Assembly: GCA_019054805.1 (NCBI GenBank)
Contig: JAHQIY010000005.1
Coordinates: 5,935,501 to 5,999,500, forward strand
DNA from: Brachionus manjavacas
Lineage: Eukaryota > Rotifera > Eurotatoria > Ploima > Brachionidae
Length of the DNA stretch: 64,000 bases
Direction: 5' to 3'
The stretch's first letter is position 1. Each line of letters begins with the position of its first letter. This document shows, piece after piece, positions 1,363 to 53,200 of this stretch. Both the position numbers and the translations under genes were made by a program. The notes under the pieces were generated by a model. The model ran no database searches and was not told the DNA's origin. It saw nothing but the letters and a program-made list of their open reading frames with translations.

Positions 1363-3544
1363 TTACAGAAAAACAGTTGTCCATTGAAATAGCTCATTTG
1401 AGACTTTACAAAGAAGGGTTTTAAGTTCAGAACTTCTTGAGCTTTCAACAAAAACATCAATATAATCCTGTATGAGTGAAGTAATGAGTGTGTTTTCACA
1501 TATTAAACTTTTTTTTATGTATTTTTCGAGCAGAATTCTGAGTCTAGACTCAATTCTATCAACCTTTTGGTCCTTGAGAAGACCAGAAAGTTGGATAGAA
1601 GGTGTGTCATAAGGTAAGTGATAGATTGATTTAAAACATGTATTTTGAATTACTTGCAGTTTTTGAATGTTTGTCTGGGAGACACGGGATAAGATGAAAA
1701 AACTATAGTCTATAATGGAACCTATAAGTGCATTATAGACTCCAATTAAGGTTTTTTTATTTAACTTCCACGAGCTGTGTGACAAAATTTTAATTAAATT
1801 TACGCGATCATGACATCTAGAACGAATGAGTTCAACCTGGGAGTTGAAACAAAGACTTTGGTCAAATTTTATTCCAAGGAAGACTGGGGAGTCAGTTTAG
1901 GGTATTTGTTTTCCAAATAGTTTTAGACTTAGCTTAATGTTTTTTGACGGATTACCAGAGTAAAAAATGTAGCTACATTTTTCTGGGGAAATCTTTAGCC
2001 TCCATTTTTTGTAGCCACAGCTGCAATTTTTTAAGATAGTTATTTATAATGTTAGTAATGTTCCCATACTTTTTAAAAACAAAAAAGGTCACCAGGTGAT
2101 CGGCAAATAACAAGGAATATGAGTGGTTTTTTTGGTCCTGCTTGGGGATATCATTAATAAAAATAGTAAAGAGTAAAGGACTAATGACTGCACCCTGGGG
2201 AACTCCAGTATCTATGGAACCTGAATCCGAGACAAAGTTATTTACTTTCACAAAAAAACTTCGATTTTTTAAAAAGTTAACCACCCACTCCAGAATGTAG
2301 AGAGGGGCCCCAATTTTGGTAAGTTTGTAAATCAATCCACTGTGCCATACCTTGTCAAACGCCTTAGAGATGTCGAAGAAGAGGGAACATACTTTTTTCT
2401 TTCTAACTAAAGTTTCAGAGACCTTTTGAGTTAAAAACACCAAATCGTCGGAGGTACGTCGATGCTGCCTAAAGCCAGACTGTTCCTTGCAGATAAGACT
2501 CTTGTTTTCAAGGAAATTGTAAAGCCTACTTGTAATAATCCTTTCAAGAACTTTTCCAAGACAGCTAGTGACACTAATTGAGCGGTATTTAGACGGGTCA
2601 GAACTAACTTTTTTTTTGGGGATCATTGTTATTTTAGATGTTTTCCAAGCATCTTGGATTTCGGATGTAGCTAGACAGAGGTTGAAAAAACTCGCTAGAC
2701 CGATAATGAACGGGTCAGGGAGATTTTTCAACATACGGTTACATAAGTTGTCAGGTCCAGGGGCTTACTCGTCTTTTAGTTTTCTAATGCTTTTTTTTAG
2801 CTCTTCAATTGTGATTTTAGACAAAGACTTTTTGGCATTCAAATAATGATTGCCTTTCAGATAATCCTTATTTGATGCAAAATCTTCGACCATGTCCCGA
2901 AAGTCATTGTCGAAGGAATCATTTCTTTCTTGAGTAAAGGTTTCCCCAATAATCTCTTTAAAAAGTGTACCTTTTTCGGAATCTGTGTTAAACTCTTTTG
3001 AATTGAGGACCAGTTTGGGGATAACATTGCCGGAGGAGTTTTTTTTAAACGAATTAACTTTTTTCCAAAAAGGACGGGAAGAGTTTGGATTAGGCCCAAG
3101 AGACTTAGGAAATGTATCCCAATTCTCGCATTTGAATTTTTCTATTTCAAAACTGATTTTATTAGTAAGCTTATTACACTCCGCCCTGGTTAACCTTGTC
3201 TTTTTTTTGACTTTTTTTAACACTTTGCGTTTGGAAATTAGCTCTACTATATAGGCCGGAAGTGATTTTTTAAATTTTTTTGGTGGAAATATAGGAATTG
3301 CAGAATTTACTGCTTCTAGTATTTGAGTAGAAATTTGACTTTTAATGTGATTTATGTCACCTGACAGCAAGTCAAAAACACAAGAGTCCAGACTTCTCTT
3401 AAATTTTTCCCAGTTAGTTTTCCTGTAATTGAGAGTAGATCTGTGATTACTTTCAATTTTCAGTAGTTCTTTTTTGTTGGACAGTGAATTGCAGTTCCAA
3501 TGGACAATTTTAAGAACACGCGTTTTAAGGTTTTTTTTAGACAT
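1363..3544 (-). pseudogene. LINE ORF2 (endonuclease remnant + reverse transcriptase), broken
   Basis: The N-terminus reads LKIVHWNCNSLSNKKELL, the opening strand of an APE-type endonuclease, then jumps to the post-endonuclease linker (NYRKTNWEKFKRSLD), so roughly 200 residues are deleted. The RT retains APGPDN, SVTSCLGKVLERII, QSGFRQHRRTSDDL, DISKAFDKVWHSGLIYK and TGVPQGAVISPLLF. The catalytic FADD box reads FADH, replacing an essential aspartate. An in-frame stop lies at about 2762-2764, a frameshift near 1985 and another stop near 1897. After that the thumb region (KILSHSSWKLNKKTL, IIDYSFFILSRVSQ) is open to the stop at 1363. Codon structure is otherwise preserved, so decay is recent to moderate. 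Confidence 0.88.
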
Positions 3545-3599
3545 TTTATAAAAATTTATATTAAATAAAAATACAATAAATAAGTAAATAAGATTTAAT

Positions 3600-4740
3600 A
3601 GATTTATTAAGAATTTGGCTTGCTTTAACTGAGATTGAGAAGTTTTGAGGCTTCTGATTCAATTTCCTTGTCCGTAAAGTCCATACTTTCTTCGTTTTCT
3701 TTGTTTTTGGTGTTTTTGTTGTTTTTCCTGCTAGTCCGAGCCTTTTTCCCAGTGACACTTTCCGGAGTGGACTTTTGGCCAAGCTTTCGAGTCCGATTTG
3801 TCTTAGCCGGCTTTGATAATCTTGAAATCATTGGAGCGCTTAACAGACGTGTTGGGCTAGGTCGGATTGGGAAATTAATTGCTGGAAAATTAAAAAGGTC
3901 AGGTGCCTTATTTGGAGTATTAATTGTAGGTAATTGTCCCAAAGGTGTGTGTCCAAATAGCGTTTGAATATTTGGTAATGGCATTCCGTTTGAGCTGGAA
4001 TTTTCATTGGAGGGGGAATTATTCCCAAATTGACGTGATTGATAATAACTTCGTCACCATTTGTGTCCACATTCGTCATCATTTGTGTATTTTGGTCGTT
4101 TTTGTTGTTCAAATTACTAGACTGGGATGTATTTTTGTTGATTTGGGGTTAAATTCGTCAACTACTGAGATTTCCACTCCTTCACCATCATCAAATAGAT
4201 GATCATCGTTTGACTTGGCAATTCGTCTTGCTAGGTTGCATTCTGGTGCAGTATGCCCACGTCCATTACATTTGACACATTTTAGGTCTTTGAGTTTGCA
4301 GTGTATTATTTTTTTTTCCTACTTTGACAAAAGCGACATCGGGGTTCTCCAACTCTTTCAATCGAAACTGGATGTCCTTGGATATACGCATTTTTTGGAA
4401 TTTTTTTCACAATTTCATTGTATTTTATATTTAGGACAGCATTGAATTTCAGCTTGGCACGGACTGTTCCATTTTTGATGTGACGAAATTCCGCGTCGCT
4501 CAAAAATTCATCATAAATATTGACGATTTCCATTGGCAAGACACCCTCAGAAATGAGGTGTTTTTCAATCAAATAATTGTCAAAGTTTGGTTTAAGTCCG
4601 TAAAATTTGAACGTAAAAATTTTTTCATTTTTTAATGGTTCCTCAGCGTTTTCGATTGATACAATGTGTTCGTTAATCAGTTCCCAATTTTTGATGCTCT
4701 TCCATTTTCGATATTCGTTACAAAATACAGTTAAGTGTTA
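3600..4740 (-). pseudogene. LINE ORF1 (gag-like, CCHC zinc knuckle), broken
   Basis: Reading from 4740 downwards, an open frame carries an RRM-like stretch (FKFYGLKPNFDNYLIEKHLI), then a Cys-rich part ending in the CCHC knuckle CVKCNGRGHTAPEC (about 4240-4290), with an extra CRFC pair before it. This arrangement is known from nucleic-acid-binding ORF1 proteins of Jockey/I-type LINEs. Frameshifts near 4310, 4110 and 3960 break the ORF. The C-terminal part (3984-3625) is basic and rich in Pro, Ser and Lys. No start codon was chosen because the 5' end is uncertain. Confidence 0.75.
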
Positions 4741-14160: not shown

Positions 14161-14183
14161 TTTATATCGACAAGAAAAAAAAG

Positions 14184-14273
14184 TCCCGCGAAGCGGATTT
14201 GAACCACTGACCTAAGGATCGCTTTGCATTTTAACTCTACAGTCCTCCGCTCTGCCAACTGAGCTATCGCGGG
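14184..14273 (-). tRNA. tRNA-Tyr (GUA) with intron, pair 1 left
   Basis: Identical fold to the copy at 161-250: anticodon GTA and a 17-nt intron after base 37. Transcribed leftwards, head-to-head with the copy at 14379, with a 105-bp spacer. The spacer of this pair is in the opposite orientation to those of the other three pairs. Confidence 0.95.
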
Positions 14274-14378
14274 CTTACTATTCATGCGAAAATAATTTCA
14301 TTTGATAATTTCGAAAATATTGCCTAAGGAAATTAAATTGAATAAGTAAAGAATATATTTTTTCAATATTATGACAAG

Positions 14379-14468
14379 CCCGCGATAGCTCAGTTGGCAG
14401 AGCGGAGGACTGTAGAGTTAAAATGCAAAGCGATCCTTAGGTCAGTGGTTCAAATCCGCTTCGCGGGA
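14379..14468 (+). tRNA. tRNA-Tyr (GUA) with intron, pair 1 right
   Basis: Complete cloverleaf, acceptor CCCGCGA/TCGCGGG, intron AGTTAAAATGCAAAGCG. A T-run directly downstream is a likely RNA polymerase III terminator. Confidence 0.95.
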
Positions 14469-14529
14469 CTTTTTTTTTCTATTAATTTTTATTATTATAT
14501 TATTTATGAAAAATATTCTCAAAATTCAA

Positions 14530-14890
14530 AATTTTGTGGTTTTTGCGGAAATTTGAATTTAGGTTTCAAACGACCTTTTCTTTTTTGATATTGAGTTAAA
14601 AAAATTTGTCTGAATTAAAAAAATAATAGTTGAAAAATAATGAAATGAAGAGAAAAAAATAATCTATTATTTAATATTTGGTGGCTTTTTAGCAATTATT
14701 TCTATGAACAAATAAATAATTCTTGGTACATATTATGATATTTACCAATAAATATATTTGATTTGCAAAATAGATTGAATTTTTTTAAAAAAATGAGATC
14801 TATTAAAATTTAAATATTTTTTTTTTTTAGTCTTTAAAATTAATTTTGTTTTTGAATTAGGATTCTTTTATGGTTTTAAAAAAATCTTTT
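14530..14890. repeat. Segmental duplicate of the DLGAP 5' flank (partner 20112-20460)
   Basis: The sequence beginning ATTTTGTGGTTTTTG and continuing through TTTCAAA(C/T)GACCTTTTC and TTAGGATTCTTTTATGGTTT also occurs at 20112-20460 in the same orientation, just upstream of the DLGAP-like gene. A tRNA-Tyr lies nearby at both sites (before this block, after the other), pointing to local duplication of the gene neighbourhood. Confidence 0.75.
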
Positions 14891-16219: not shown

Positions 16220-16560
16220 TCCTAGCATTTGGTAATCTTTATAAATCCTTGAAAGGATCATTTTTAGATTATTCTTTTCCTTCACAGAAACTAACATTAA
16301 AAAAATTCAAGTTATTCAAAATTCAGCAGTTAGATCTATTTTGAAGATGAAATATAAAATCCAGTCCAATATTATGTATTAAGAAGCCTTCAATATACTT
16401 TTTTCCTTTTTGAGATTTAAGGAAATTTTAAAACAAAAATTCTTTAAAAATAAATACTTGAAGAATTAGTTGAAAAAAATATTTTGTCTCATCAAAATTA
16501 ATAATCCTGATATCCTGAATCTTGATAAACAAATAATTCATTTAATACTAAATTTATTAA
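16220..16560 (+). pseudogene. LINE reverse-transcriptase C-terminal remnant
   Basis: The frame LYKSLKGSFLDYSF, then (after a shift) ETNIKKIQVIQNSAVRSILK, matches the thumb/tail region of the LINE at 57.4-57.8 kb (LYKSLVGSILDYSF). Several stops and shifts; no 5' part present. Confidence 0.65.
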
Positions 16561-16582
16561 TTGAATTAAAAGAAAAAAAAAG

Positions 16583-16672
16583 TCCCGCGAAGCGGATTTG
16601 AACCACTGACCTAAGGATCGCTTTGCATTTTAACTCTACAGTCCTCCGCTCTGCCAACTGAGCTATCGCGGG
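16583..16672 (-). tRNA. tRNA-Tyr (GUA) with intron, pair 2 left
   Basis: Full-length, intact acceptor, intron as in the other copies. Head-to-head with 16778, 105-bp spacer. Confidence 0.95.
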
Positions 16673-16777
16673 CTTGTCATAATATTGAATAAAAATATTC
16701 TTCACTTATTCAATTTAATTTCCTTAGGAAATAGTTTCGAAATTATGATATGATTGTTTTTTCGCATGAATAGTAAG

Positions 16778-16867
16778 CCCGCGATAGCTCAGTTGGCAGA
16801 GCGGAGGACTGTAGAGTTAAAATGCAAAGCGATCCTTAGGTCAGTGGTTCAAATCCGCTTCACGGGA
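16778..16867 (+). tRNA. tRNA-Tyr (GUA), pair 2 right, acceptor-stem mutation
   Basis: As the others, but the 3' acceptor strand reads TCACGGG in place of TCGCGGG, giving a C-A mismatch at the fifth acceptor pair. The partner copy is intact. The gene may be decaying or simply tolerated. Confidence 0.85.
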
Positions 16868-17899
16868 CTTTTTTTTTCTATTAATTTTATTATTATATTA
16901 TTTATCAAGGATGGTTTGCCAGGATTTTTTTAATTTTTTTTTAATAAGATTTAGTTTTCTAGCAAAAAAATTAGAAAATAAAAAATAAAAAAATTAATAA
17001 TAAATGAAATTTATGTAAGCTTTTAATTTTATATTTTTATTGAATCAGACCGTATCTTCTGACTTTTATGAATTAGGAAAATTTGAGATAATTACGATCA
17101 TTTAAGATTATATTTAAAAAAAATCCTTCAAAAAGTGTTGTTTACAAGTTAAATGGAAGTTATAAAATTCAAATATTCTTTATTTAATTAGCTATTTTTA
17201 AATGGCCTAGAATTCCATAATTTGTTTGAGTTTTAATTAAATTTACTAAAATTTTTGCCATCATTTTTTAGTAAGTTAATCAATTAGATATGAACTTAGC
17301 ATAAAAAAATAATTGTTTTATTATTTATTTCAAATAAAGGTTGTATTCTTAATTTTTCATTTCTTTGAAATACTTTAGAAATTTATCAGATTTGGCCACT
17401 ACTTTTCTCACCAATTTTTCCCCGATTTTTTAATTTTATCAATGAAAAAAAGTAATTTTTTTTTCTCTTGAATATTAAGCATCTTGAAACATTTGTCTTA
17501 TTCTTATTTTTAAATAAAAATATGAAATTTTCTGTTCAAATTTTCTTTTTATGTTTAACAAAAAATAAAAAAAATTAATTCATTTAATTTTAAGGTCCTG
17601 ATTTTTTATTACTATCTGTCTAAAATGAGCACAATTAATTTTGAGGTAATAATGACTTCTTACCGAAAAATAAAGATCATTTTAAAAATTAAAGTTGTCA
17701 ACAAAAATTTAATTCAAATTTAAAAATTGATAATTTCATCTAGACAAGATAAATTAAAAAAATCAAAATAAGATATAATTTTTCTGGAAAATTTTATTAC
17801 CAAGTCTAAAAAAAAATCTATTTTTCCAAAAAATTAAATTTATCACTTGAGCAAATAAAAAAAAATAAGATAAAAATATTACAATTTTGATTAAAAAAA
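16868..17899. other. AT-rich intergenic stretch, 3' of the DLGAP-like gene
   Basis: No supported ORF or repeat family. Its right end must contain the 3' UTR of the minus-strand DLGAP-like gene. Confidence 0.5.
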
Positions 17900-20460: not shown

Positions 20461-20581
20461 CAAATGACCTTCTCCTTTTTGATATAAAGTTTAAAAAAAA
20501 ATACGTCCCAATAACAAAATTTTGATTTTAGAAAATTTTTTTGATTAATAATATAATAATTGAATTAAAAGAAAAAAAAAG

Positions 20582-20671
20582 TCCCGCGAAGCGGATTTGA
20601 ACCACTGACCTAAGGATCGCTTTGCATTTTAACTCTACAGTCCTCCGCTCTGCCAACTGAGCTATCGCGGG
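20582..20671 (-). tRNA. tRNA-Tyr (GUA) with intron, pair 3 left
   Basis: Full-length cloverleaf, anticodon GTA, 17-nt intron. Head-to-head with 20777 across a 105-bp spacer. Confidence 0.95.
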
Positions 20672-20776
20672 CTTGTCATAATATTGAATACAAATATTCT
20701 TCACTTATTCAATTTAATTTCCTTAGGCAATAGTTTCGAAATTATCATATAATTTTATTTTCGCATGAATAGTAAG

Positions 20777-20866
20777 CCCGCGATAGCTCAGTTGGCAGAG
20801 CGGAGGACTGTAGAGTTAAAATGCAAAGCGATCCTTAGGTCAGTGGTTCAAATCCGCTTCGCGGGA
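20777..20866 (+). tRNA. tRNA-Tyr (GUA) with intron, pair 3 right
   Basis: Full-length and intact; a T-run downstream may terminate polymerase III. Confidence 0.95.
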
Positions 20867-21634
20867 CTTTTTTTTTCTAGTTAATTTTGTTTATTTTTTT
20901 TTCGGATAGATTCAAATATTTTTCTGTTTATTCATTTTACAAATTTATTATTAAATTATTCGAAAGCTTTTTTATAAAATCAGGACTAATAAATTTAATG
21001 AGTCTTGATTTTTTTTTAAGATTTGATTTCAGCAATATTTTATTCTGATGGAATGAAAAAATAAATGAAAAAATTTAAGTCTTTAAAATTCTAGATGTTT
21101 GTTAAATGAGAAGGGATTTACTTTTGTTTTTACTTCGATCAAAGTCTTAAAAAAAAATCTCAGCGTGAAAAAAGTTAGTTAAATTTTTGATACCTTAAAC
21201 AATTTTGTTAAATATAAAATAAGTATTTTAGTATTACTTTTCATTATTAGACTTTCAAAAATAAAATTTTTTTAGGATCTGTAATTGTTTTTTAATCAGA
21301 ATTTAAAAAAAATTTAGAATTAGCTATTTATTTTCGAAATTAAAATTTTAAACTTACGAAGTTTTTATTATAAAAAATTTATCGATCAATTTTTTGTAAT
21401 ATTATATTTTTTTACGAAAAAAAGAAATTCTTTTTGAGATTAATTTGCAAAAGTAATTTTTTATTTAAAATAAACATAAACTTAAAAAAACTAAAATTTA
21501 TAAATTTATTTTTATAAAAACATAACAATTAATGATTTGAGGTAAACAAATAATGAATGATAAAGCTTAAACAAAAACAAAATATATTAAAATGATATAA
21601 ATTCAGTAGATAAATAATGGAAATAAAAAAAATA
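20867..21634. other. AT-rich stretch, 3' of the micro-exon gene
   Basis: No gene seen. It should include the 3' UTR and poly(A) site of the minus-strand gene ending at 21635. Confidence 0.5.
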
Positions 21635-23203
21635 TTATTTAAATAAAGCGATAAAGCCCACAACGAACGAAAGCAAACTTAAAAATACTGAAATAAATGG
21701 TGTGTACCGGATAAATTTATATGTTAAGCCACTGGTTTCTTTAAAAAAAAATTAGATTTAAAAAAAAATAAATAAAATTTCAAACCATCCAAAAATTTTT
21801 TTTTGGAAATTTTTTAATAAACTCATGCAGTTAAAATCTTCTAGGTTAATAGGAATATTTTATAAGATTAAATTTTTTCATTAAACAAAAAATTACCATC
21901 TTCAATCTTTTGATTAATACCTTAATAAAAATAAAAATAAATGTTTTTCTAAGAAATCATTGAATACTTGTAACATCTTGTTGAATTTTTTTCACTAATA
22001 AAAAATTTATGATTTATTTAAAAAAATTCAATTGAAATTTTACAGCTATCAGCCAAAGTTTTATTATCTTAAATTAATAACAAAATATAATTTTTCAAAT
22101 CAGAATAAATTTTAAAGTTACTTTTAAAATTTTTTTCATGGAATGAAATTATTTCTAAAATAAAACAATTATACAAAAACCCAATAGTAAAACGCAAAAT
22201 ACCTTCAGCATCTTTATGGAGTACATTTCTTGTCTCTAGAAAAATAATCAAGATAACATTAAATCAAATCTTTTTTTTATAAACACAAAATACCTTCAGC
22301 ATCTTTATGGAGTACATTTCTTGTCTCTAAAAAAATAATCAAGATAACATTAAATCAAATCTTTTTTTTATAAACACAAAATACCTTCAGCATCTTTATG
22401 GAGTACATTTCTTGTCTCTAAAAAAATAATCAAGATAACATTAAATCAAATCTTTTTTTTATAAACACAAAATACCTTCAGCATCTTTATGGAGTACATT
22501 TCTTGTCTCTAGAAAAATAATCAAGATAACATTAAATCAAATCTTTTTTTTATAAACACAAAATACCTTCAGCATCTTTATGGAGTACATTTCTTGTCTC
22601 TAGAAAAATAATCAAGAAAACATTAAATCAAATCTTTTTTTTATAAACACAAAATACCTTCAGCATCTTTATGGAGTACATTTCTTGTCTCTAGAAAAAT
22701 AATCAAGAAAACATTAAATCAAATCTTTTTTTTATAAACACAAAATACCTTCAGCATCTTTATGGAGTACATTTCTTGTCTCTAAAAAAAATTGTAAATT
22801 TTATTCGATTTTTTATTTGAAAGAAACCTTCAATTTTATTTAAGACATTCTTTGATTCTTTAAAATCAAACAATTAAAAAAAATTAAATTTAGAAAATAA
22901 TAAAGAAAAAATACCTTTTGAGTCTTTATGAAGTATGCTTTTTGTACCTTTCAATTCAATAATATTAAAAAAATATTCAAAAAAACTTAAATTTACTCTC
23001 AAGTTTTTGATCGATGTTCTTAAATATCTTTAAAAATTCTATCTCTTTTAAAAAAGATTTAAATTTCTTTCATTATTTCAATTATTTTTTTTACCGTTTT
23101 TATTTGTTTCTTGTCCACCTAATTGGTAATAATTTAAATTTTTTTTTATTGATTAACAATCAATACTTGAAGTTTTTTTAGAAGTGGTTGGCTTTTCGTG
23201 CAT
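21635..23203 (-). CDS. Micro-exon gene encoding a tail-anchored 11-residue-repeat protein
   Basis: Eighteen exons by splice site and phase: 23203-23167, 23118-23095, 23044-22997, 22947-22915, 22857-22828, seven 33-nt exons starting at 22781 and repeating every 91 bp down to 22203, then 22154-22122, 22067-22044, 21994-21968, 21920-21897, 21840-21823 and 21738-21635. Every junction is GT-AG, every intron interrupts a codon after its first base (phase 1), and introns are 46-58 bp except the last (84), matching other genes here. All internal exons are multiples of three. The product is 210 residues: a polar start (MHEKPTTSKK), a charged helical region, related 10-11-residue units (STKSILHKDSK, ESKNVLNKIE, then ETRNVLHKDAE seven times, EIISFHEKNFK), a linker, and a hydrophobic C-terminus (YTPFISVFLSLLSFVVGF) three residues or so before the end. 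I recognise no family. The architecture suggests a coiled-coil, tail-anchored membrane protein. The unannotated exon-5 copy and regular phases argue against chance. Confidence 0.8.
22203..22781 (-). repeat. Tandem array of 91-bp exon-intron units (7 copies)
   Basis: The copies start every 91 bp and are nearly identical. Each unit holds a 33-nt exon (AGACAAGAAATGTACTCC... on the minus strand) and a complete 58-nt intron with donor GTATTTTG and acceptor TTCTAG or TTTTAG. Differences between units are few (CTAG/TTAG acceptors; AAGATAAC/AAGAAAAC), so the array expanded recently. Older, diverged units flank it at 22828-22857, 22915-22947 and 22122-22154. Confidence 0.95.
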
Positions 23204-24362
23204 TTTTATTTTTTTGGAAGCAAATTTGAGATTTTAGACGCTTTTTGAATTCTTCTTGTAAAAATAAAATATAATGATTCACCAAAAAGTATAACTTCAC
23301 TAAATACACATTCTTAAAATAGATTTAAATTTTATGCCAAATTGAAAATGAATACTAGAGACAAAAAAAGAATTTTAACAAAGCATATAGTATGCGAAGA
23401 ATTTTTCATCTTTTAGTAAAATTAAAAGAATTGCAAATTTGAAATTTAAATTTTCTCTTATATTTTACTTGAAATAAAAATAATAAATAAGCCAACAATG
23501 CAAACAGAGAATCAAAATCGTAATTTTAATTATTTCATTTATTCTAATCTCTAAATTTAAAAATTTTATTTTTTAGCCGAAGATGAAACTATAAGAAGAC
23601 GTAATTTTTTTTAAAAATTAATGAGTTTCGTTTTTTAAATATTAGATTTAAGTTTATGATATTCTTGATAAAGTTACAGGTAAAATTCCCTTTTTTTTTT
23701 CTAAATAATTATTCGATTTAATTTTTTTTTTGAAATGAGAACTTTGGTTGAAAAGAGTAAATTTTTTAAGCATGTAATATTTATTTTAAATTTTTTAATC
23801 CAAATTTTCTAGGAAAGCAAAGAAGACAAAGTGAAATTTGCCTTAATTTGTTTTCTTTGATATTTGCAATTTCCAGCTTGTTCATGTCAATTTACGCTCT
23901 TTTACATTCACTAAATCGTTAAAAAAAGCAATAATCATGGGTCTATTGTTTTTTTTTAATTAAAAATTTTTTTAAGTTATAAATAAAGAAAAAATTCATG
24001 GATACACATGGTCTTTTCATTTTGAAAATTAAAAGAAAATATTTTTTATAAATAAAATTTTAAAAATTGTTAGTAAAAAAATTAAAACCGAATCAATAAA
24101 GTCATTAAAACTTTAATTAAGTCTGTTTTTGACATCTTAAACCTTTTTTCTCATAAAAAATTAAAAAAAAATTTAACTGTAAGAATCGCATTTTTTTTTC
24201 ATAAATTTTGACTTTAATAATCTTTTTAATTATAAGAACTCTTTGGAATAATTAGCCCTAAGATTAATATAAGTGATTAATTTAATTTATAATTGTAAAA
24301 ATTAATTTCTAATTTTTTTTCTAAAATTTTTTTTACTAAGATACTGGAACATCGACACATGC
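23204..24362. other. AT-rich stretch upstream of the micro-exon gene
   Basis: No supported gene. The promoter and 5' UTR of the minus-strand micro-exon gene should lie in its left part. Confidence 0.45.
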
Positions 24363-24995: not shown

Positions 24996-27900
24996 CAGTG
25001 GCGTAGCGCCATTGAGGCGAAGTGTGGCGGCCGCCACACCATTTTTTTAGTTTAGATGAGAATACATATTGAACTTGTATTTATTTTTTAAAAATTTATA
25101 ACTTGACCTTGCATGAATTAATAATTAAAATAATATAACCCCTCCTGTTTTTCATTATTATGGTTAAAAGTGTTTTAATGCATTAAATTTTTAGATCTTG
25201 TGTTTATTTAAGTTAATTATGAACATTTCAAATTTCAAATTTAAGTTAAATATGAACAAACAAATTCGAATTTTTTATATATTTAAAATTCTGCTCCAAA
25301 ATAAAACAAAAATTTATTATTTATTCAATTGAAAAATGAATAAAAATTTTTAATAAGAATAAAAAATGTAAATATAAAAATTGATTTCTTCTTGCCATTA
25401 TTGTGATTAAAATTTTAAGCTCTAATTATTGAAAAATTCCTAAAAAAATACTTATAACCTTAAAGCTATTAAAAAATTTTTTTATTCCAAATATGCTGCT
25501 CAAATTCAAAATTTTTTGAGAAATAATTTTGTATTTTTTTCAAATGAAACAGGCTAAATTAAATTTTAAAGTCTTTAGTCAAACTCCGCCTCTTGTTTCG
25601 TCTATTTTACAAGCATCAGACTTGCCTTCGGGCTCAATTAGAAATGTATCATCTATTACAATTACCAAAATTTCACCTTCTATTGAGCCATCTTCTTGTC
25701 TTGTGAATGAAACGAATGAAAATTTCTTTGAAATTAAAACTATCACGTCTGTTTCTTCGGAAAATACACAAAACAATCAAACCCCAATTTCATGTATTAT
25801 TGAAAAAATGACCCCAGATCAACCGAAAGATTTTAAGCCGATTAAAGACAAATATGATCGATATTTTAAAGAAAGGTGGTATGATAACTTTAACTGGCTT
25901 GAATACAACGTAGAACAAGACCGCGCTTTTTGTTTTATTTGCCGAAAATTTTGTCGAAACGAAGTCAAGATGGATTCTTTTGTCTCTACCGGATTCAAAA
26001 CTTGGAAAAATGCCTATGATAAGTTCAGAGAGCATGAGAAGACCTCAGCTCATCAAACAGCTAAAATAAAATGGCATCATGCAACCAAAAAAGGTCTTTC
26101 ATGTGCAAGTCTTGTTGCTAAACAACACGAAGACGAGATTAGTTTTAATAGAAAGTGTCTTGGTCAAATAGTAAAAGTTATAATGTTTCCAGGAAAGCAG
26201 GGATTAGCTTTTCGAGGACACGATGAGAGTACTAATTCTGATAACAGTGGAAATTTTATGGAATTTATAAACCATCCTGCAAATAACTACTCTCCAGACT
26301 TAAACAAATTTATAAAAAACTATTCAAATGCGAACTATCTTAGTCCTGATATTCAAATCGAAATAGTTGGAATTATTTCAAACGAGATTCGTAGTTGTCT
26401 AATCCAAAAGATTAAACAAAATAAATATTTTTCAATTATTGTCGACGGGACAAGTGATATTACTAAAAAAGAGCAAATAAGTTTTTGTGTAAGAACTGTT
26501 TCAAAAGACTTAACAATTGATGAGCATTTTTTGGGTTTTTATGAGGCGAAAGACACTACCGGTGACACATTGTTTAACTTATTAAAAAAAGCTTTTTTAG
26601 ACCTATCACTCTCATTTGAAAACTTAACCGGACAGTGTTATGACGGTGCTTCAAATATGTCTGGAATTTATCAGGGACTAGCTAGTCGAATCAAGAACCA
26701 AGTGCCCTATGCGCTCTATGTTTATTGCTATGCCCACCGATTGAATCTTGCTTTACAAGACTCATGCAATGAAATTCAAGAAATTCGAAATTTGTTGGGT
26801 CAGGTCAACTCCATCTACGTTTTGATTGAAGGTTCTTCAAAAAGAAATTACATATTTGAATCGCTCAGAGTAGACTCAAATAAAAGAAATTTACGTTTAA
26901 AGTTGCTTTGTGATACTAGATGGACATCTCGATCAGCAGCACTTAAAAGTGTATTGGAAAATTATGAGACTATCTTGAAAACTTTGGAAGTTATTTAGTT
27001 TTTTATCTCCTATTATCTTCATTTTGACAAACATTTCAAATTTTCAAATATTTTTTTGATGTTAATTTTAGCAAAATATTTGTTACATACAAAAATCTAA
27101 TTATTTTTCATAAAGTTTATTATTTTTGGAGATATAAATTTAATTGACAAAAAATAGTATTTTAAAAAAATAATGATTTTTTTAGGTCCAGTATTAAAAA
27201 TTTGAATTTTCTAATGTTTAACTTGTATTTTTAGACTTTATCTTAAGACTGTCAAACTAAGGTACATAAGCTCGGACCCCACTCCTATTGATTAAAGTAG
27301 AAAAATTAAAATACTCAAATTTTAGGATTTTAATCAAACGAATTAGGTCTTTTAAATGACAAATGTTGTCAAAAATATTCTTTTACCCTTTATAGTTAAA
27401 TTAAAAGTTTATTTTTAAGGAAATAAATAATCGAATGCTATGAGCTTGCTTAAATCGATTAAAAAATTTGAGTTCTATTTTTTACTCGAAGTTTTGACAG
27501 ATATTTTTATTAAAACAAACATACTTTCAGTTCAACTTCAAACAGTTTGTTATGACTATGCAAATGTAAGATTACTAGCTGAGGCTACAATCACCCAGTT
27601 AAAATGTTTAAAACCAAGAGAGTTTTTTGATGAGAAATATGAGCTGATAATGGAAAAATCAAATGATTTGGTGCTAGAGCCACCCAAAAGTCCACGCGTT
27701 ACAAGACTACCTAAGTAGGAAATAATTTATCTTTTATAGTTTTTATTTAATATAATTTTTATTTATAATATCAAAAATAAGGCGATACAGGACTGAATGC
27801 TATAAAGAGCCCACTGAATTGAGCGCAAAAGATACAATTTTCGAAATCTATACAAAAACAATAAATATTTTGATAAAAACAATAAGCTCAAGATTTGATA

Positions 27901-31039: not shown

Positions 31040-31217
31040 GGAGATTGAAATAAAATTTTTTAAAAATTTTTACTTTTGAACTAATTGCAAGAGGGTAAAA
31101 TTAAATAGCTTAAATTATAAGATTAAAATTTTCATATAATTTTTCTTTACAATTTTAATTTAATTACCAAAAAATTATTAAAAATAAACTCAGTTGTTAA
31201 TAGTTTTACTAAAAAAG

Positions 31218-31307
31218 TCCCGCGAAGCGGATTTGAACCACTGACCTAAGGATCGCTTTGTATTTTAACTCTACAGTCCTCCGCTCTGCCAACTGAGCTA
31301 TCGCGGG
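31218..31307 (-). tRNA. tRNA-Tyr (GUA) with variant intron, pair 4 left
   Basis: Intact fold. The intron reads AGTTAAAATACAAAGCG, with an A where other pairs have G. The same change is in its head-to-head partner. Confidence 0.95.
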
Positions 31308-31412
31308 CTTGTCATAATATTGAAAAAAAATATTCTTCACTTATTCAATTTAATTTCCTTAGGCAATAGTTTCGAAATTATGATATGATTATTTTTTCGC
31401 TTGAATAGTAAG

Positions 31413-31502
31413 CCCGCGATAGCTCAGTTGGCAGAGCGGAGGACTGTAGAGTTAAAATACAAAGCGATCCTTAGGTCAGTGGTTCAAATCCGCTTCGCGG
31501 GA
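31413..31502 (+). tRNA. tRNA-Tyr (GUA) with variant intron, pair 4 right
   Basis: Intact fold; shares the intron variant ATACAAAG with the left member, from which it is separated by a 105-bp spacer. Confidence 0.95.
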
Positions 31503-31558
31503 CTTTTTTTTCGTCATAAAAAATTCAATTAATTAATCTTAGCTAAATTTCTAACATA

Positions 31559-39500: not shown

Positions 39501-42500
39501 AATTTGTGTGTAACGCAGTGACTCTCTTTTTAAATTTGCTTATCTTCATTCAAGTATTAGGATTTAAGTCAGTTTTTAAAGATTTGTATACTTTTTATAA
39601 ATATTTTATGACTCATCCATTGATTTTGTAGATAAATTCTAGTGTTGGACGCGGACAGAGCTAACCGGTCCAGAAACGGGCGGTTCATCGCGGTTGTTGG
39701 CCCGTTTATTTTGGCGGGCTAAATTTTGACCCGTTTAATAAACGTTTAAAAATAAACGGGCGGTCCAAGAAACCGTTCCAATTTTGGCGGGCGGACTCTG
39801 GCCCGTTTATTTTGGCGGGCTAATTTTTGGCCCGTTTAATAAACGTTTAAAAATAAACGGGCGGTCCAAGAAACCGTTCCAATTTTGGCGGGCGGACTCT
39901 GGCCCGTTTATTTTGACGGGCTAAATTTTGACCCGTTTAATAAACGTTTAAAAATAAACGGGCGGTCCAAGAAACCGTTCCAATTTTGGCGGGCGGACTC
40001 TGGCCCGTTTATTTTGGCGGGCTAAATTATGGCCCGTTTAATAACCGTTTAAAAATAAACGAGCGGTCCATGAAACCGTTCCAATTTTGGCGGACGGACT
40101 CTGGCCCGTTTATTTTGGCGGGCTAAATTTTGGCCCTTTTAATAACCGTTTAAAAATAAACGGGCGGTCCATGAAACCGTTCCAATTTTGGCGGACGGAC
40201 TCTGGCCCGTTTATTTTGGCGGGCTAAATTTTGGCCCGTTTAATAACCGTTTAAAAATAAACGGGCGGTCCATGAAACCGTTCCAATTTTGGCGGACGGA
40301 CTCTGGCCCGTTTATTTTGGCGGGCTAATTTTTGGCCCGTTTAATAACCGTTTAAAAATAAACGGGCGGTCAAATAACCGGCCAGATTTTTGGCGAGCGT
40401 TAATTTTGCCGGTCAACTTGGCGGTCTTAATTTTGACAAAAAACAGGAAATAAATAAAAAATTAAGCTTTCTTAATATATTTATTTTTTAAAAAAAAGTT
40501 ATTTTTTAATTAGAAAAAAAAATAAAAAAAATCTACGAAAAAAAAATTTTATTTAAAAATTAATAAAAAATAAAAATCTTATTTAAAAAAAAAAAAAAAA
40601 AATAAAAATTTTATTTAAAAAATAAAAAATATTTTTAAACGGTTATTAAACGGGCCAAAAATTAGCCCGCCAAAATAAACGGGCCAGAGTCCGTCCGCCA
40701 AAATTGGAACGGTTTCATGGACCGCCCGTTTATTTTTAAACGGTTATTAAACGGGCCAAAATTTAGCCCGCCAAAATAAACGGGCCAGAGTCCGTCCGCC
40801 AAAATTGGAACGGTTTCATGGACCGCCCGTTTATTTTTAAACGGTTATTAAACGGGCCAAAATTTAGCCCGCCAAAATAAACGGGCCAGAGTCCGTCCGC
40901 CAAAATTGGAACGGTTTCATGGACCGCCCGTTTATTTTTAAACGGTTATTAAACGGGCCATAATTTAGCCCGCCAAAATAAACGGGCCAGAGTCCGCCCG
41001 CCAAAATTGGAACGGTTTCTTGGACCGCCCGTTTATTTTTAAACGTTTATTAAACGGGTCAAAATTTAGCCCGTCAAAATAAACGGGCCAGAGTCCGCCC
41101 GCCAAAATTGGAACGGTTTCTTGGACCGCCCGTTTATTTTTAAACGTTTATTAAACGGGCCAAAAATTAGCCCGCCAAAATAAACGGGCCAGAGTCCGCC
41201 CGCCAAAATTGGAACGGTTTCTTGGACCGCCCGTTTATTTTTAAACGTTTATTAAACGGTTCAAAATTTAGCCCGCCAAAATAAACGGGCCAGAGTCCGC
41301 CCGCCAAAATTGGAACGGTTAATACGGTCACGGTCACGGTTTTTAAAATTTTTGGCCCGTTTACTGTCCGCTTGCACGGACACCAACACTAATAAATTCA
41401 TTATTTTTATTAAAAAACGAGTCAAAATGACTCTTTTTGGTGCATCTAGTAGTTTGGTGCATCTACTTGATTTTGTATAAAGGAAATTTTTTTTTATTTG
41501 AATTTAGTTTATTTAGAAAGTTATTCTTATTTTTATGCTGAAAAAAAATTGTGCTCAAATACTAATCTCTACTGCATTGAGATGATCATTTACACCGCAA
41601 TTATTACCCAGTCGAAACTGGTCCCCCTATTTTTATAATGAAAGAGGTTTAAACACTCGCCCCGTATTGCAGAGATATTTTTGAAGAATTTTTCACCCTC
41701 AGCAGGTTTTTTACCCTCGATTCTCTGCTTGCATGACTAACATGAAAATCACTAGGCTATACGAGCTGTATTATAAGTTCTTTGATTCTGTAATTTTTCC
41801 TGTAAAGCGCAATGAGCTACCATAAGTGACCTCTTAGTAGGCCGCTACTTTTATTATTCTTATTGCTATTATTATTTTGAAAAAGCATGAAAAAAGTGCG
41901 TTGTCTCAGGTATTAAAAGTTTTTAAAAGGGAATTTCTGATTTTTTTTTATTAATTAATAAAAATAATATTGTTTATTCTATCATTTATTTCGGTATTCA
42001 AAACGGTACGGTATTTCCGGTATTTCCATTTGGAAATAACACTTATTAATTGAGTAAAAAACAAAATTATGTAATAAGATTGCAAAATTTCATCATAGAA
42101 TGCATAAATTACAAAATTTATTTTTGATGCATTCACATTATATCATTTGATTACTATTAAACATCCTTTTAAAAATCAAAAGATTCAAGGCTGGGCAGAA
42201 AACTCAAAAATTCTACCAACTTGTCAGTATGGCTTCAGAAAGCCAAAAGCACCCAAGATCACATATTGAGATTAAACCAATCAAAAGCAGATGGATTCAA
42301 CCGCAAACAACTAACAGGAGCTATCTTCTTCAATCGATCTTGAGAGAGCCTTTGATAAAACATCACACAACGGTATAATTGCAAAATTAAAAGAACACAA
42401 TCTTCATAGAATATTTCTCCGATGGATTGAAGACTTTCTGACAAACCACTCTTTCAGAGTCAGCTATAATGGCCAGACTTCAAAAGATAGTCTATTAAAT

Positions 42501-45500
42501 GAGGAGTCCCTCATGGAAGTTGCAAGGTGGAGGGGTAGCTTTTTTAATTAAGGAAAATATCAACTATAGTCAAGAAAAAGAATATGATTCGTTCGAATTA
42601 AAACCGAACCAAAAAAAGAATTTTTCGAAAAATTGAATGAAAGTAAAGTAGATTTTGTTTTAGCAGGTGATTTAAATTCCAAAAGTAAAGCTCTAAATTG
42701 CGTAGAAAAAAACCCAAATGTTTTTTTTTTAAACAAAATTTTATTATTGTGTTTTAAATGATAAATTGTAATTTTTGTGTTTTAAATGATAAATCTCCAA
42801 CTCACTGTCATTTTACAACACAAAAAGAGGATATTTTAGATCTTTTTATTGCTTCACCTTCTTTTTACAGCAAAAAAGTTGAATTTTCAAGTCTAAAAAA
42901 ACATGATATGGGCAGTGACCACTATCCTGTTTTACTAGAACTCAAATTTGAATTTGGATCTTAATAAGGCCGAGTGGGAAAAGTTTAGAGGGCTTCTACC
43001 AAAAGAAGTCCCAAATGAAATTAAGAATAATTTAGAAAAATTTAACCGTTTTTTAACGGAAAGCCTTGTTTATGCTGCGACAAATTCAATTCCTACCTTT
43101 AAAACTAGAAATTTAAAAAAAACATTGCCATACTATATTCTGGAATTAATTGATGAAAAACATAGAGCAAAAAATTGTCTTAAAAAACACAACAATCTAG
43201 AAAATAAAGCACGTTTTTTACCTTTTTACAAAATTAGTTCGAGAAGAAATTGCAGCTTTTAGAGACAAAAATTGGCAAGATTTTCTCGATAAAATAAATA
43301 AGAACGTAGTTTCTTCAAAGCACTTTTGGCGAAAAAGTAATAGAAACAGGAATGATTCTAAAAAATCATTAAAGAATTGTCAATTTCCTAAATTAACCTA
43401 TGATGGCAAAGAGTATAATACAGAGATGGAGAAAGTTGAGCTATTTGGTAAGCTTTTGGAAGAAACTTTTAAGGACAAAAACTTAAACAATTATGATAAC
43501 AAACATAAGGAAAAGGTAGAAGAGGAGGTAGCTAATTATTTGACAAAGGAGAGAAGTAACGAAGCTAGCTTTAAAATATCTGAGTTAGAGCAAGCAATAA
43601 ATAAATTAAATATAAGTTTAGCACCAGGTCCCGATAATATCCATAATTTATACTTAATAAACTCTTCTGATGATTTTAGAAAACTAATTCTGGAATTGTT
43701 AAATTTGTCTGCGAGAACAAATGCGTTGCCTAACGCGTGGAAAATTGCAAGAATAAGCATGATCCCCAAAAAAAAAGCAAATAGCCCAAGTCCTAAAGAA
43801 TAAAGACCAGTTAGTGTCACAAGTTGTCTAGGTAAATTATCGGAAAGACTTGTCTTAAAAAGGTTAAACACGTTTATTGAAGAAAATGAGCTGATAATTA
43901 AACAACAATCAGGGTTTAGGAAGCATAGACAAACTAGGGATAATTTATTTCATTTTATACAAAAAACAATTGAAACATTCGAAAGAAAAAAGAACGTTTG
44001 TGCCATTTTTTTCGATATTCAGGCAGCATTCGACATGGTCTTCTTTATAAAATGATCAAAATGAAGATACCGATTGATCTTATTTTATGGTTAAGAGCAT
44101 TTTTAGAAAATAGGAAATTTTTCGTTAATATTGGAAAAACACAATCAAAACTTTACGATATAAAAGCAGAAGTCCCACAAGGAGCAGTGTTAAGTCCTTT
44201 ACTTTTTTCGATTTATATAAATGACATACCAACTAAATATAATAAAAACAAAAGTAATTCGCTACTTTTTGCGGACGATCTAGTGTTTTATTTTATCTTT
44301 AATTAGAACAATAACATTCAAAAAATGATAAATGGTTATATTAGGAACATAGAACAGAGGCTCTCACTGTGGCGCTTAAGTATGGCAGCAGAAAAATGCA
44401 ATTATATAATTTTTTCAAGTACGAAGAAAAATCTGACCAAAAAATTGAAGTTTAAAATGTTAAATAGAGACCTTACACCTTCAGATAACATTTGTTTTTT
44501 GGGTATAAGATTCGATTATAGTTTGAGTTTCAAAAATCAGGTAGAATTTCTTAAAAAAAATTGCCAGCAGCGACTTAATTGCTCGAAAATTCTTTCGCAT
44601 AAATCGTGGAAATTGTCTAAAAATACCTTAAAACAAATCTACTTTGCTCTTGTACGATCGGTTCTAGACTATTCTTCGGTAATTTTACCAAGATTGTCTG
44701 CAAAAAATCTAAAAAATTTACAGAGAATTCAAAATTGTGCTATTAAGGTAATTTTTAAGCTAAATTATCGGGAAAACACTCAAAACATTCATAGAATAGC
44801 AGGCTTTAAAGTTCTAGAGGATAGATATGGGGAACTAAATGAAAATTACTTAAGCGATTCGATTCTGAATAAAAATCCATTGATTAATGATTTAATAAAC
44901 GAATACAAACTATTCAAAAGAGGTAGAATAAATAAACTTAAATTCGATACTCCTAAAAGTGTAGCAGTAAAAGAAAAAATAACTAAAAGAAACATTGCCT
45001 AATTTGTCTTATATTTTTTTTTTTTCTATTTTTTTTTTTCAGTTCTTTTCTTGTTTTGTAATTAGAAAAAACTCCTAGTTCGGCTTGAGTCGGTTTGATT
45101 CGGTTTGGTTCAAAAAAAAAAAAAAAAAACATTTGAAACATTTTATTTAAGCTTGGCAAAGGAGCGAAAGCTCGAGCCAATATTTATTTATTTATTTATT
45201 TAAATAAAGACGTTTATCATCATCAGGGATTTAAGCAAAATGTGCAAAATGTATCAGCTGGTACAAACTTTGTACCACCCAAATAAAGACTCTGCAAAAA
45301 CTCTGCAAGTCTGCAAAGCACTAAAAGTAAGCACTAAAGTATTAGAAAATCATAAAAATTGAATTGCAGAGTTATTGCAGAGACTAAATTTGGGTGGTAC
45401 AAAGTTTGTACCAGCTGATACATTTTGCACAACTATTTTTAGACTTTTAATAAAAAAGTTATTTCATTTTAAGATTATTGTTTTTGTTTTTTGCTTCAAA

Positions 45501-49689: not shown

Positions 49690-50205
49690 ATTTTATTTAA
49701 TGGACAACATGGTTTTAAAAATAGACATTCATGTCAAACAGTAATCCATAAGAAAAAAAAACAAACAACTGTTTCTCTGTTTATTGTCTCTGTTTGGGAA
49801 AGCATTTGATGTTATTGATTCAAATTTATTACATTTAAAACTTTTTCACTTTGGTTTTGATAATTCTTCTTTGGGTCTTCTTTCAAACTATTTTGAAAAT
49901 AGATCTCTGATAGTTAGAATTGGATGTGAAATGTCTAATCCAGTAAAACTAAAGCTAGGTGTACCGCAAGGATCTGTCCTGGGTCCACTGCTATTTCTTA
50001 TTTTTGTTAATGATTTACCTTTTTTATTTAAAAATTTAAGGATCAAAATGTTTGCTGATGATACAACAATAAGCATCTCTGGAAAAGACCTTGAAAAAGC
50101 TTTGATAAAATTAAATGTTACAACAAAAAATTTAAATGAATGGTGTATTTTTAACAGAATTGATATAAACTGGTCAAAAACTTTTTGCATGATTTTTGAT
50201 ACCTT
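49690..50205 (+). pseudogene. LINE reverse transcriptase, first part (interrupted)
   Basis: FNGQHGFKNRHSCQTVIH, FGKAFDVIDSNLLHLKL, GVPQGSVLGPLLFLIFVNDL and MFADDTTISISGKDLEKALI are RT blocks with intact FADD. It breaks at FCMIFDT where an RTE element in opposite orientation begins, and resumes at about 53296. Confidence 0.85.
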
Positions 50206-53200
50206 ACGTCGCCCTTGAGGTGTCCATTGAAGGGCCCTTTTTTGTATCCGTGTATCTTTCATTCTAAGTACATGACCGAGCCATCGCAGCCTTTTGTTCT
50301 TAATGCATTGACTAAATAGTTCTGAATTTGTTCTTGTGTAAAGCTCAGCATCTGACAATGTCTCAGGCCAGTGTATCCCGAGAATCCTCCGCAGGCTTTC
50401 AGTGTGGAAGGTGTTAAGGCTTTTCCTTTCAGATTCACTCATCCCCTCAAATTCACTTCCGTACATCAATGTTGCTTTTACTACACTGTTGTATAGTTTA
50501 AGCTTTGTTTCCTTGCTGTAGCTTTTTGATTTCCATGCTGATCGGAGTCTAGCAAAGACATTCTTTGCTTTAGCAAGTCTATTCTTAATGTCTTTGTGTA
50601 TTCCCAACATTGTGCTGATAGTGCTACCTAGGTATGTGAACTCATTTACACACTCGATTTGTGTACCATCGATGATGATCGGGGTATCCAATTTGGTGTT
50701 TATGCACATAACTTTCGTTTTGGCCCCATTTATTTCGAGTCCGGTTGGTTAAGCGTTGTTCGCCAAGTCTTGCATCTTTAATGCATATGTGTTTCTGTAT
50801 TAGATATTAGCACCAGATCATCCGCAAAGTCTAAGTCTTCAAGTTTTGCAGTTAATCCCCATTGAATACCTCTCGCACTAACAGTAGTTTTCTTCATGAC
50901 ATAATCAATCAATATTAGGAATAGTGTCGGAGAGAGAACGCACCCTTGTCTGACTCCTGTACACACTTTGAAACTTTCAGATTTTCCTTTTCCCAGAATC
51001 ACGTTACACTCGAAATTCTCGTAGAAGAGTTTTATCAAGTTAACTATCTTCTGTGGTAGGCCATAAGATCTTAATATAGCCCACAAGGTTTCTCTGTGTA
51101 TGCTATCAAAGGCTTTCTAAAAATCAATGAAGTTAAGATACAGGGGACTATTCCATTCCAGACTTTGTTCTATGATGTTCCTAAGTGTAAATTTCTGGTC
51201 TATGCATCCTCTACCTCGTCTAAAACCTGCTTGTTCTTCTCAAAATATAGCATCCAAAGAGTTCATGATTCTTTCCAGTATTATACTGCAGAACGCCTTG
51301 CTTGCTATTGGTAGCAGTGTTATTCCGCGCCAATTGTCACATATCATTTTGTTACCTTTCTTTGGGAGCCTTACTATTAGGACTTTTGACCAGTACTCAG
51401 GTATTATTTCTTTCCGCCATATCTTGCTGAAGAGGTCTTGCAATATCCCTACTGTGATCCTGCCATCAGCTTTTAACATTTCTGCTGTGACTCCGTCAAT
51501 GCCGGGTGCTTTCCGGTTCTTCAGAGCCTTTATCGCAGCTTCTATTTTTCTTAGGCTTGGAACTTCGGTATTAATATCGAGGTCAGTGCTAGCTGTTTCT
51601 GGTCTTAAAGGCTCTAAAGGTTCTGGTCTATTTAGAACTTCTCTAAAGTGTTCAACCCATCTTTGCCATTGCTCTTTTTCAGTTGTTAGGATACGGCCTT
51701 CTTTGTCTTTCACTAATATTGTTTTTTTCTTTCAAGGGCTACATATCGAAAGTGATCTTGTGTAGCTTATCTAGGTCCCCTTTTGAGCTGCCTTCTTCTG
51801 CTTCGCTAGCAGACTGGTTTATATAATTCCTATTATCACGCCTAGCTCCTTTCTTCACAAGCCTGTTCTTTATTGCGTATGATGATTCTTACGCAATTTC
51901 TCTCGGCTTCGATTAGATTGTGCTTGAAGCATTTTCGCTTTGATATCCCCTCTTTCAGCTATCAGTGCCCATGTCTCATTGGATATCTTCCTTTTCCTTT
52001 GATGTTTTACAAATCCTAGAACCTCTTCTGCTGTTTTACAATTTGCTTCTCGAATTTCTGACAACCTTCGTTGTATATCCGACTCCTCTTGCTGTTCAAT
52101 TTTTTGAAAGCTTTTTCTTAGCTTTCTGCTGTATTCTGTTTTACTTTTGGGATCAGCTAGACGTCCAACATCGTATTTCTTTTCTGTATTCCTCTGATAG
52201 GCTTTAATCAGTTTCAACTTTATACACGCTCCTACCAGATAGTGATCACTATATATGTCGGCTCCTCTAAAGACTTTAGTGTCATTTAGGGAATACTTCC
52301 ATCTTTTATTGATCATTAAATGATCAAATTGGTTTAAAGTTTTCTTATCTGGAGATTGCCATGTCAGTTTGTGTATATTTTAATGCTGAAACATTATTCC
52401 ACCTATGCAGAGGTTATTAGTCATTCATAGATCTATTAGTCTTTCACCATTATTATTTCTTTCTCCGCAACCGTGAGTTCCCATGCACTTTTCAAACCCA
52501 TATTTATCACTTCCAGCTTTCGCATTCATGTCGCCCATGACTATCATGAGGTCATATCGAGGCACTTAATCTAAAGTTTCTTGTAGCTGTTCGTAGAATA
52601 TAGATTTTTCCTCTTCACTTGCTTCGTTAGTTGGGGCATAGCATTGTATGATGGATGTGTTACAATGCTTCCCTTTTAGCCGTGTGCGAATCAGTCTTAC
52701 ACTTATAGGTTCCCATTCCATCATGGCATCCTTGCTTGCTTTGAAAGCATTATCCCTACGCCGTGTTGTCTTGTGTTATCAGTACCAGAATACAGGAAGG
52801 TCCATCTACTGTTGTTTATTTGGCCTGATCCTGTCCAGCGACTTTTACATATACCTAGCACCTCTAAACCGTATTTCTCCATGACCAGTGCGGCTTGAGC
52901 GCATCTGGATGTTTCGGACTTGGTTCTGACATTCCAGGTTCCGACTCTACATCTGTGTTTCGCAGTAAAATCACACTTTTCTGCTAGCAACCTCCTCGTA
53001 GGTTTTCAGTTTCAAGCGTCATGACTGACGTTGTTTCAGCCATTGTGATGTTACCACTACTCACTTGAGCTTCTTTCTGGTTTCTTGATTTCTTTGTAAC
53101 TATTTTCATATACTTAGGCAGTCGGGTAGTTAGTTAGCCCTACGCGCTCGCAGAAGAGCTTTTGTTATACATGATACCTTTCAACCGCGTACTTTCTACT

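Follow-up and report, generated by a model that had tools for sequence, protein, structure and literature searches.

The window analysed here, a 64,000-nucleotide stretch of the genome of the monogonont rotifer Brachionus manjavacas (C5:5935501-5999500), carries on its minus strand, from 23203 to 21635, a predicted gene of 18 exons and 17 GT-AG introns. In gene order the introns measure 48, 50, 49, 57, 46, 58 (six times), 48, 54, 49, 47, 56 and 84 bp, and all 17 interrupt a codon in phase 1. Each of the 16 internal exons is 18-48 nt long and a multiple of three, and since all introns share phase 1, gain or loss of an internal exon stays in frame. Joined, the exons form a CDS of 633 nt that would encode 210 amino acids followed by a stop; mean exon size is 35 nt, and internal exons of at most 36 nt hold 444 of the 633 coding bases (70%). 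No stop or frameshift occurs across the 18 exons, GT and AG are intact in 17 of 17 introns, and G+C content is 30.4% in exons vs. 15.1% in introns (a count made without exon 17, which was taken together with both adjoining introns as one 158-bp intron). Both the splice model and the gene finder described below thus bear out the first-pass annotation, which had listed 17 GT-AG introns in one common phase, 46-58 bp long apart from one of 84, and frame-neutral internal exons of 18-48 nt (16 of 16). A bacterial promoter scan upstream of the gene, a scan type ill-suited to a eukaryote, gave nothing above chance. The features are:

23167..23203, minus strand: exon 1, 37 nt, with the ATG, MHEKPTTSKKTSS (splice model and gene finder)
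23095..23118, minus strand: exon 2, 24 nt (splice model and gene finder)
22997..23044, minus strand: exon 3, 48 nt (splice model and gene finder)
22915..22947, minus strand: exon 4, 33 nt, diverged copy STKSILHKDSK (splice model and gene finder; likeness to array exon)
22828..22857, minus strand: exon 5, 30 nt, diverged copy ESKNVLNKIE (splice model and gene finder; likeness to array exon)
22190..22790, minus strand: 91-bp exon-intron tandem array, seven exons and six introns (TRF; one genome locus)
22749..22781, minus strand: exon 6, array copy 1, 33 nt, ETRNVLHKDAE (splice model, gene finder, genome pattern search)
22658..22690, minus strand: exon 7, array copy 2 (splice model, gene finder, genome pattern search)
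22567..22599, minus strand: exon 8, array copy 3 (splice model, gene finder, genome pattern search)
22476..22508, minus strand: exon 9, array copy 4 (splice model, gene finder, genome pattern search)
22385..22417, minus strand: exon 10, array copy 5 (splice model, gene finder, genome pattern search)
22294..22326, minus strand: exon 11, array copy 6 (splice model, gene finder, genome pattern search)
22203..22235, minus strand: exon 12, array copy 7 (splice model, gene finder, genome pattern search)
22122..22154, minus strand: exon 13, 33 nt (splice model and gene finder)
22044..22067, minus strand: exon 14, 24 nt (splice model and gene finder)
21968..21994, minus strand: exon 15, 27 nt (splice model and gene finder)
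21897..21920, minus strand: exon 16, 24 nt (splice model and gene finder)
21823..21840, minus strand: exon 17, 18 nt (splice model and gene finder)
21635..21738, minus strand: exon 18, 104 nt, C-terminal hydrophobic segment and stop (splice model, gene finder, hydropathy, genome search)

TRF describes the array as a repeat of period 91 with 6.6 copies and 99% matches; its seven units are the copy number of the assembly, and the count in animals could differ. The seven 33-nt exons share a single sequence and all encode ETRNVLHKDAE, whereas the six array introns comprise three distinct sequences that differ at two variable sites. The first-pass description of seven near-identical copies of exon plus intron therefore holds for the exons but not for the introns, of which the array has only six; the intron that follows the seventh array exon differs from them. 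The intron variants occupy neighbouring blocks (one in units 1-2, the other in units 4-5), a pattern that fits local or unequal exchange. Nine of the 17 donors have an AG/GT junction, among them the donors of all seven array exons.

Several other elements share the window. Four similar units of ~300-360 bp (14175-14537, 16551-16903, ~20514-20901 and 31211-31511; 94.8-97.0% identity to the 20.5-kb copy) each contain two head-to-head intron-bearing tRNA genes, and a single tRNA gene lies at 161-250 in a partial unit (140-260). Rfam returned nine tRNA matches, at 57.1 bits apart from one at 52.8, and by eye the anticodon looks like GTA (Tyr); ARAGORN run on the window with the bacterial code returned no tRNA. 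Two 101-bp tandem arrays (39698-40371 and 40630-41320) appear, by eye from the TRF consensus, to be inverted copies around an AT-rich core. A 721-residue open frame on the minus strand at 17900-20065 matches the GKAP family (71.6 bits vs. a cut-off of 27) and forms a 46% G+C island in AT-rich DNA. The intervals 1363-3658, 42939-45002, 49745-52379 and 25520-26998 hold frames that by eye resemble non-LTR reverse transcriptases, together with a DUF4371 frame over its cut-off that we take to be a hAT-like transposase.

Splice-site matrices were derived by spliced alignment from 30 introns in 14 small-GTPase loci of the same genome (31 recovered, one of 163 bp left out), one of these loci being the Rho gene of the same window. 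This set replaced one drawn from long open frames or kinase domains, whose introns were too few or too noisy. The GTPase introns are 40-91 bp long, 24 of 30 falling at 49-60 bp, and occur in phases 0, 1 and 2 in 13, 9 and 8 cases; the introns of the micro-exon gene agree with them in size. Intron definition lets splicing cope with very small exons, and since introns of ~50 bp are normal in the GTPase genes examined, intron-definition splicing could probably handle the tiny exons predicted here. The 30 GTPase introns do not fit the length of ~350 nt that was proposed for monogonont introns from one odd transcript in an EST study of B. plicatilis; in the same study no 5′ trans-spliced leader was observed (PMC1925144).

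We applied a Viterbi gene finder to positions 21300-23600 with no constraint on phase or exon length, using codon preferences from the GTPase genes, kinase domains (open, below 40% G+C) and one window ORF, and a background model from four AT-rich window stretches outside the locus. The best path on the minus strand consisted of exactly the 18 predicted exons (score 32.8), and the plus strand of the same interval yielded no gene. In 14 of the 17 introns the donor outranked over 80% of decoy GTs, the three exceptions being introns 1, 15 and 17 (52nd, 52nd and 61st percentile of decoys); acceptors exceeded 80% of decoys in 9 of 17, with the remaining eight at the 63rd-80th percentile. Because a tandem array multiplies any chance exon, the region was rescored with a single unit. 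With six of the seven removed, the score was 5.8 with 11 introns, and the flanking exons were unchanged. In neither version did any of 200 dinucleotide shuffles score as high as the real sequence (maxima of 0.8 vs. 32.8 for the full region and 2.1 vs. 5.8 for one unit).

As a control on real sequence, the window and three additional loci of 10 kb supplied 150 strand-windows of 2.3 kb. Chains of at least five introns arose in 29 of these, two of which overlap the gene locus. Several of the other 27 outscore the gene locus, and many coincide with GC-rich coding or transposon sequence or with its opposite strand, with up to 14 introns; three have 25.1-25.4% G+C and scores of 5.7-11.1. Among the 50 strand-windows with at most 25% G+C, such chains appeared only in the two that overlap the gene locus. 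Given the small training set and the long, higher-scoring chains elsewhere, the gene-finder score by itself is no proof of a gene. Uniformity of intron phase is what sets the locus apart from the other chains: phases are mixed in 27 of 27 of those, whereas the strand-window containing most of the gene has phase 1 in 14 of 14 introns, and the second one, in which the 5′ part of the gene is cut off, in 11 of 12. With phases drawn at the frequencies seen in the 30 training introns, the probability that 11 independent introns (the non-repeated ones) fall in one phase is 1.0e-4.

The exons beside the array supply a separate line of evidence. As the first-pass annotation had noted, diverged relatives flank the identical copies: exons 4 and 5 each agree with the array exon in 22 of 33 aligned columns, which 0 of 2000 shuffles equalled for either exon. 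Compared directly with each other, exons 4 and 5 show no significant nucleotide likeness (542 of 2000 shuffles as good), and the likeness of exon 13 to the array exon is weak (30 of 2000). Introns 4, 5 and 12 also weakly resemble the array intron (27, 11 and 15 of 2000 shuffles as good), and intron 3 shows no likeness in the same kind of test; conservation confined to exons is therefore not a clean result, because those three introns are about as array-like as exon 13. At the protein level, the amino-acid similarity of exon 4 exceeds that expected from an equal number of random base changes (p = 0.00035), as does that of exon 5 (p = 0.004 or 0.010, depending on gap placement). Of the evidence assembled here for translation of the 11-mer, these conserved amino acids are the strongest, and they join splice grammar and coding signal in backing the earlier proposal of a genuine gene model.

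The predicted protein has one strongly hydrophobic segment, with a best 19-residue hydropathy of 2.62 at residues 191-209 of 210, in agreement with the C-terminal membrane anchor earlier assigned to the last exon. No second hydrophobic segment was seen (the best 19-residue window starting before residue 165 scores -0.07), nor did hydropathy in 19-residue windows reveal an N-terminal signal peptide. The product thereby shares the layout of tail-anchored membrane proteins, in which a single hydrophobic segment lies at the extreme C-terminus with none elsewhere; such proteins are inserted into the membrane after translation and keep their N-terminus in the cytosol. The 11-residue-periodic rod of the first-pass annotation fared less well: the amphipathic moment of the 11-mer (0.36) does not stand out from those of its permutations (mean 0.30, with 33% of permutations as high), and this test does not support an amphipathic hendecad coiled coil. 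Because the moment is not significant, a coiled-coil rod would have to rest on weak matches to helical-repeat proteins. The guess of a rod or tether function comes from helix geometry, in which eleven residues make three turns.

The first-pass annotation recognised no protein family, and this stands, although a profile search of the 210-residue translation did lift one Pfam family above its cut-off, namely Op_neuropeptide (PF08035; 31.7 vs. 23 bits with the whole protein). We reject membership among opioid neuropeptides and judge the match an artefact of summing over repeats, because no single stretch passes on its own and the match is gone once the protein is cut down to one of the seven units. 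For this shortened protein nothing passes in Pfam (ATG17-like, 20.4 bits vs. a cut-off of 43), and NCBIfam gave nothing above its cut-offs. Apolipoproteins A1, A4 and E have an 11/22-residue helical periodicity; the likeness to them consists of weak helical-repeat matches that lie far under the Pfam cut-off (PF01442, 33.7 bits vs. 90 with the full protein). Searched against the PDB, the full protein matches mostly apolipoproteins and designed helical bundles (ApoA-IV, E = 2.9e-5), and the protein with six units left out matches nothing better than E = 0.057 and no apolipoprotein at E up to 1. We read these sub-threshold matches as probably reflecting generic helix composition, pointing to a helix and not to kinship.

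Across the genome (114.17 Mb in 61 contigs), searches with the array, the anchor exon and the entire region each led to a single locus, and a 37-base array pattern with up to three mismatches has exactly seven matches, all at the gene locus; the homology search scores only the best candidates and skips common words, so that absences in it are no proof. A protein search at E up to 10 returned 16 matches. Three of them fall within the gene locus (E = 8e-12, 0.0017 and 0.11), and the 13 off-locus matches are weak (E = 0.9-8.4), most of them alike in covering query residues ~18-57 at ~50% identity within longer open frames. No spliced retrocopy, which would have supported splicing, was among the matches of this search. 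Outside the locus, the top DNA match (C1:8253652, E = 6e-8) was considered as a paralogue and rejected, being AT-rich and mostly intron 13, with no matching frame in the portion inspected. In the same assembly, the only COX1-family match found is a 667-residue open frame on contig C21. Animal mitochondrial COX1 is shorter than this, and C21 may be a bacterial contig within the animal assembly.

We consider it most probable, at roughly three chances in four, that the locus is a real single-copy orphan gene, perhaps restricted to its lineage, with phase-1 micro-exons, a tail-anchored helical product and an array formed by recent expansion of the unit. An ancestral 11-residue exon would have been duplicated jointly with its intron, older copies diverging into exons 4 and 5, and recent unequal exchange or replication slippage would then have produced the seven-copy exon-intron minisatellite, which is still homogeneous. 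Presumably transcribed and spliced, the gene would most likely yield a cytosolic helical protein held at a membrane by its C-terminal tail anchor, with a possible role as a spacer or tether. Each array unit would add 11 residues to such a helix and, as these amount to three turns, the frame and the helix face would both survive the addition or removal of a unit. Unequal exchange among identical units would change the array in whole 91-bp steps.

Three rival readings can be weighed against this account. The 91-bp repeat might be a non-coding minisatellite whose exons are a chance reading of AT-rich DNA, for one chance exon becomes seven in an array, GT and AG occur readily, TRF reports further tandem arrays in the window and the gene finder builds multi-intron chains elsewhere. 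We hold this to be highly improbable, given that the one-unit chain outscores 200 of 200 shuffles, that diverged copies beyond the array retain amino acids, that the 11 one-unit introns share their phase unforced (0 of 27 other long chains do) and that the chain terminates in a hydrophobic anchor. A once-real micro-exon gene that has decayed or is no longer expressed, and is kept open by chance, would fit a gene predicted from sequence, with a very young array and some weak splice sites. Yet 18 exons free of stops and frameshifts, GT and AG retained in 17 of 17 introns and recovery of the full model by an unconstrained gene finder make such a pseudogene very unlikely.

A real gene whose array exons are variably included, by multiple skipping or mutually exclusive choice, and which gives a shorter, variable protein, is unlikely but a possibility to be reckoned with. 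Identical donors and acceptors permit in-frame joining of any unit to any later one, and the AG/GT junctions at 9 of 17 donors, those after all seven array exons among them, would suit it; human tandem-repeat introns are enriched in an AG-GT motif able to serve as either splice site (PMC10809524), and tandem exon duplications have been linked to mutually exclusive splicing (PMC9013439). Weighing against it, choice among identical units has no effect, and the folding of a 215-nt stretch (three array exons, two introns) does not surpass that of its shuffles (z = 0.64; 143 of 200 as good). More specifically, the 91-bp unit could be a heritable length dial, in which a polymorphic copy number sets the maximum and AG-GT skipping in 11-residue steps sets the actual length of a membrane-anchored helical spacer; this we think distinctly doubtful.

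If transcripts confirm a real, single-copy orphan gene, a micro-exon gene with tandem exons and compact introns would be present in a free-living rotifer far from schistosomes, and such architecture would require neither long introns nor parasitism. Gene editing by CRISPR has been published for B. manjavacas, a laboratory species (PMC10395877). Moreover, the 91-bp array fits within one PCR product or read, making the effect of an exon-intron minisatellite on protein length directly testable. The locus is also a warning for annotation, as 18 exons averaging 35 nt are easily overlooked.

The idea of such an architecture is not new. Davis et al. in 1988 reportedly described S. mansoni transcripts with 81-base repeats encoded by tandemly repeated exons, and the schistosome MEG genes have 10-20 exons each, mostly tiny and multiples of three in length, with introns of 0.1-5 kb and proteins that carry an N-terminal signal peptide (PMC10526429); alternatively spliced isoforms are a further MEG trait. 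The rotifer gene likewise falls within 10-20 very short exons (18), the internal ones multiples of three, but its introns are 46-84 bp and its product has, by hydropathy, a C-terminal instead of an N-terminal hydrophobic segment. No MEG-named match appeared in the profile and sequence searches of Pfam, NCBIfam and the PDB, and the first-pass remark that the gene resembles MEGs with no recognised sequence link is upheld. The rotifer gene works like a schistosome MEG and is not one.

Within the same species, the MMR genes of B. manjavacas encode tandem protein repeats that hardly differ from one another, a likeness their authors attribute to concerted evolution, and the number of repeats varies among gene copies and isolates (PMC2746195, PMC3495898). 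Those repeats are 87-92 codons long in proteins with a signal peptide, and the MMR-B genes give no evidence of introns (PMC2746195), whereas the unit of the present array is 11 codons plus an intron, in a product with no signal peptide seen. The MMR-B forward primer has three matches on contig C7 at ~5.018-5.124 Mb (one exact, two with one mismatch), which suggests that several mate-recognition gene copies may lie in one region of that contig. The 20-base vasa guide target published for the species (PMC10395877) has one exact match in the assembly, at C6:3501247. Spliceosomal introns with an AG-GT motif also occur inside the tandem repeats of polyubiquitin UBC and other genes (PMC10809524); the case singled out in those genes is that of an intron as long as a whole number of repeats, and in the rotifer the unit is one exon plus one intron. 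Among the papers listed, titles and abstract openings in open-licence PubMed Central offered no rotifer parallel for a micro-exon gene or tandem exon array. As far as our searches show, novelty lies in the compact form, in the identical exon-intron minisatellite and in the host being a rotifer.
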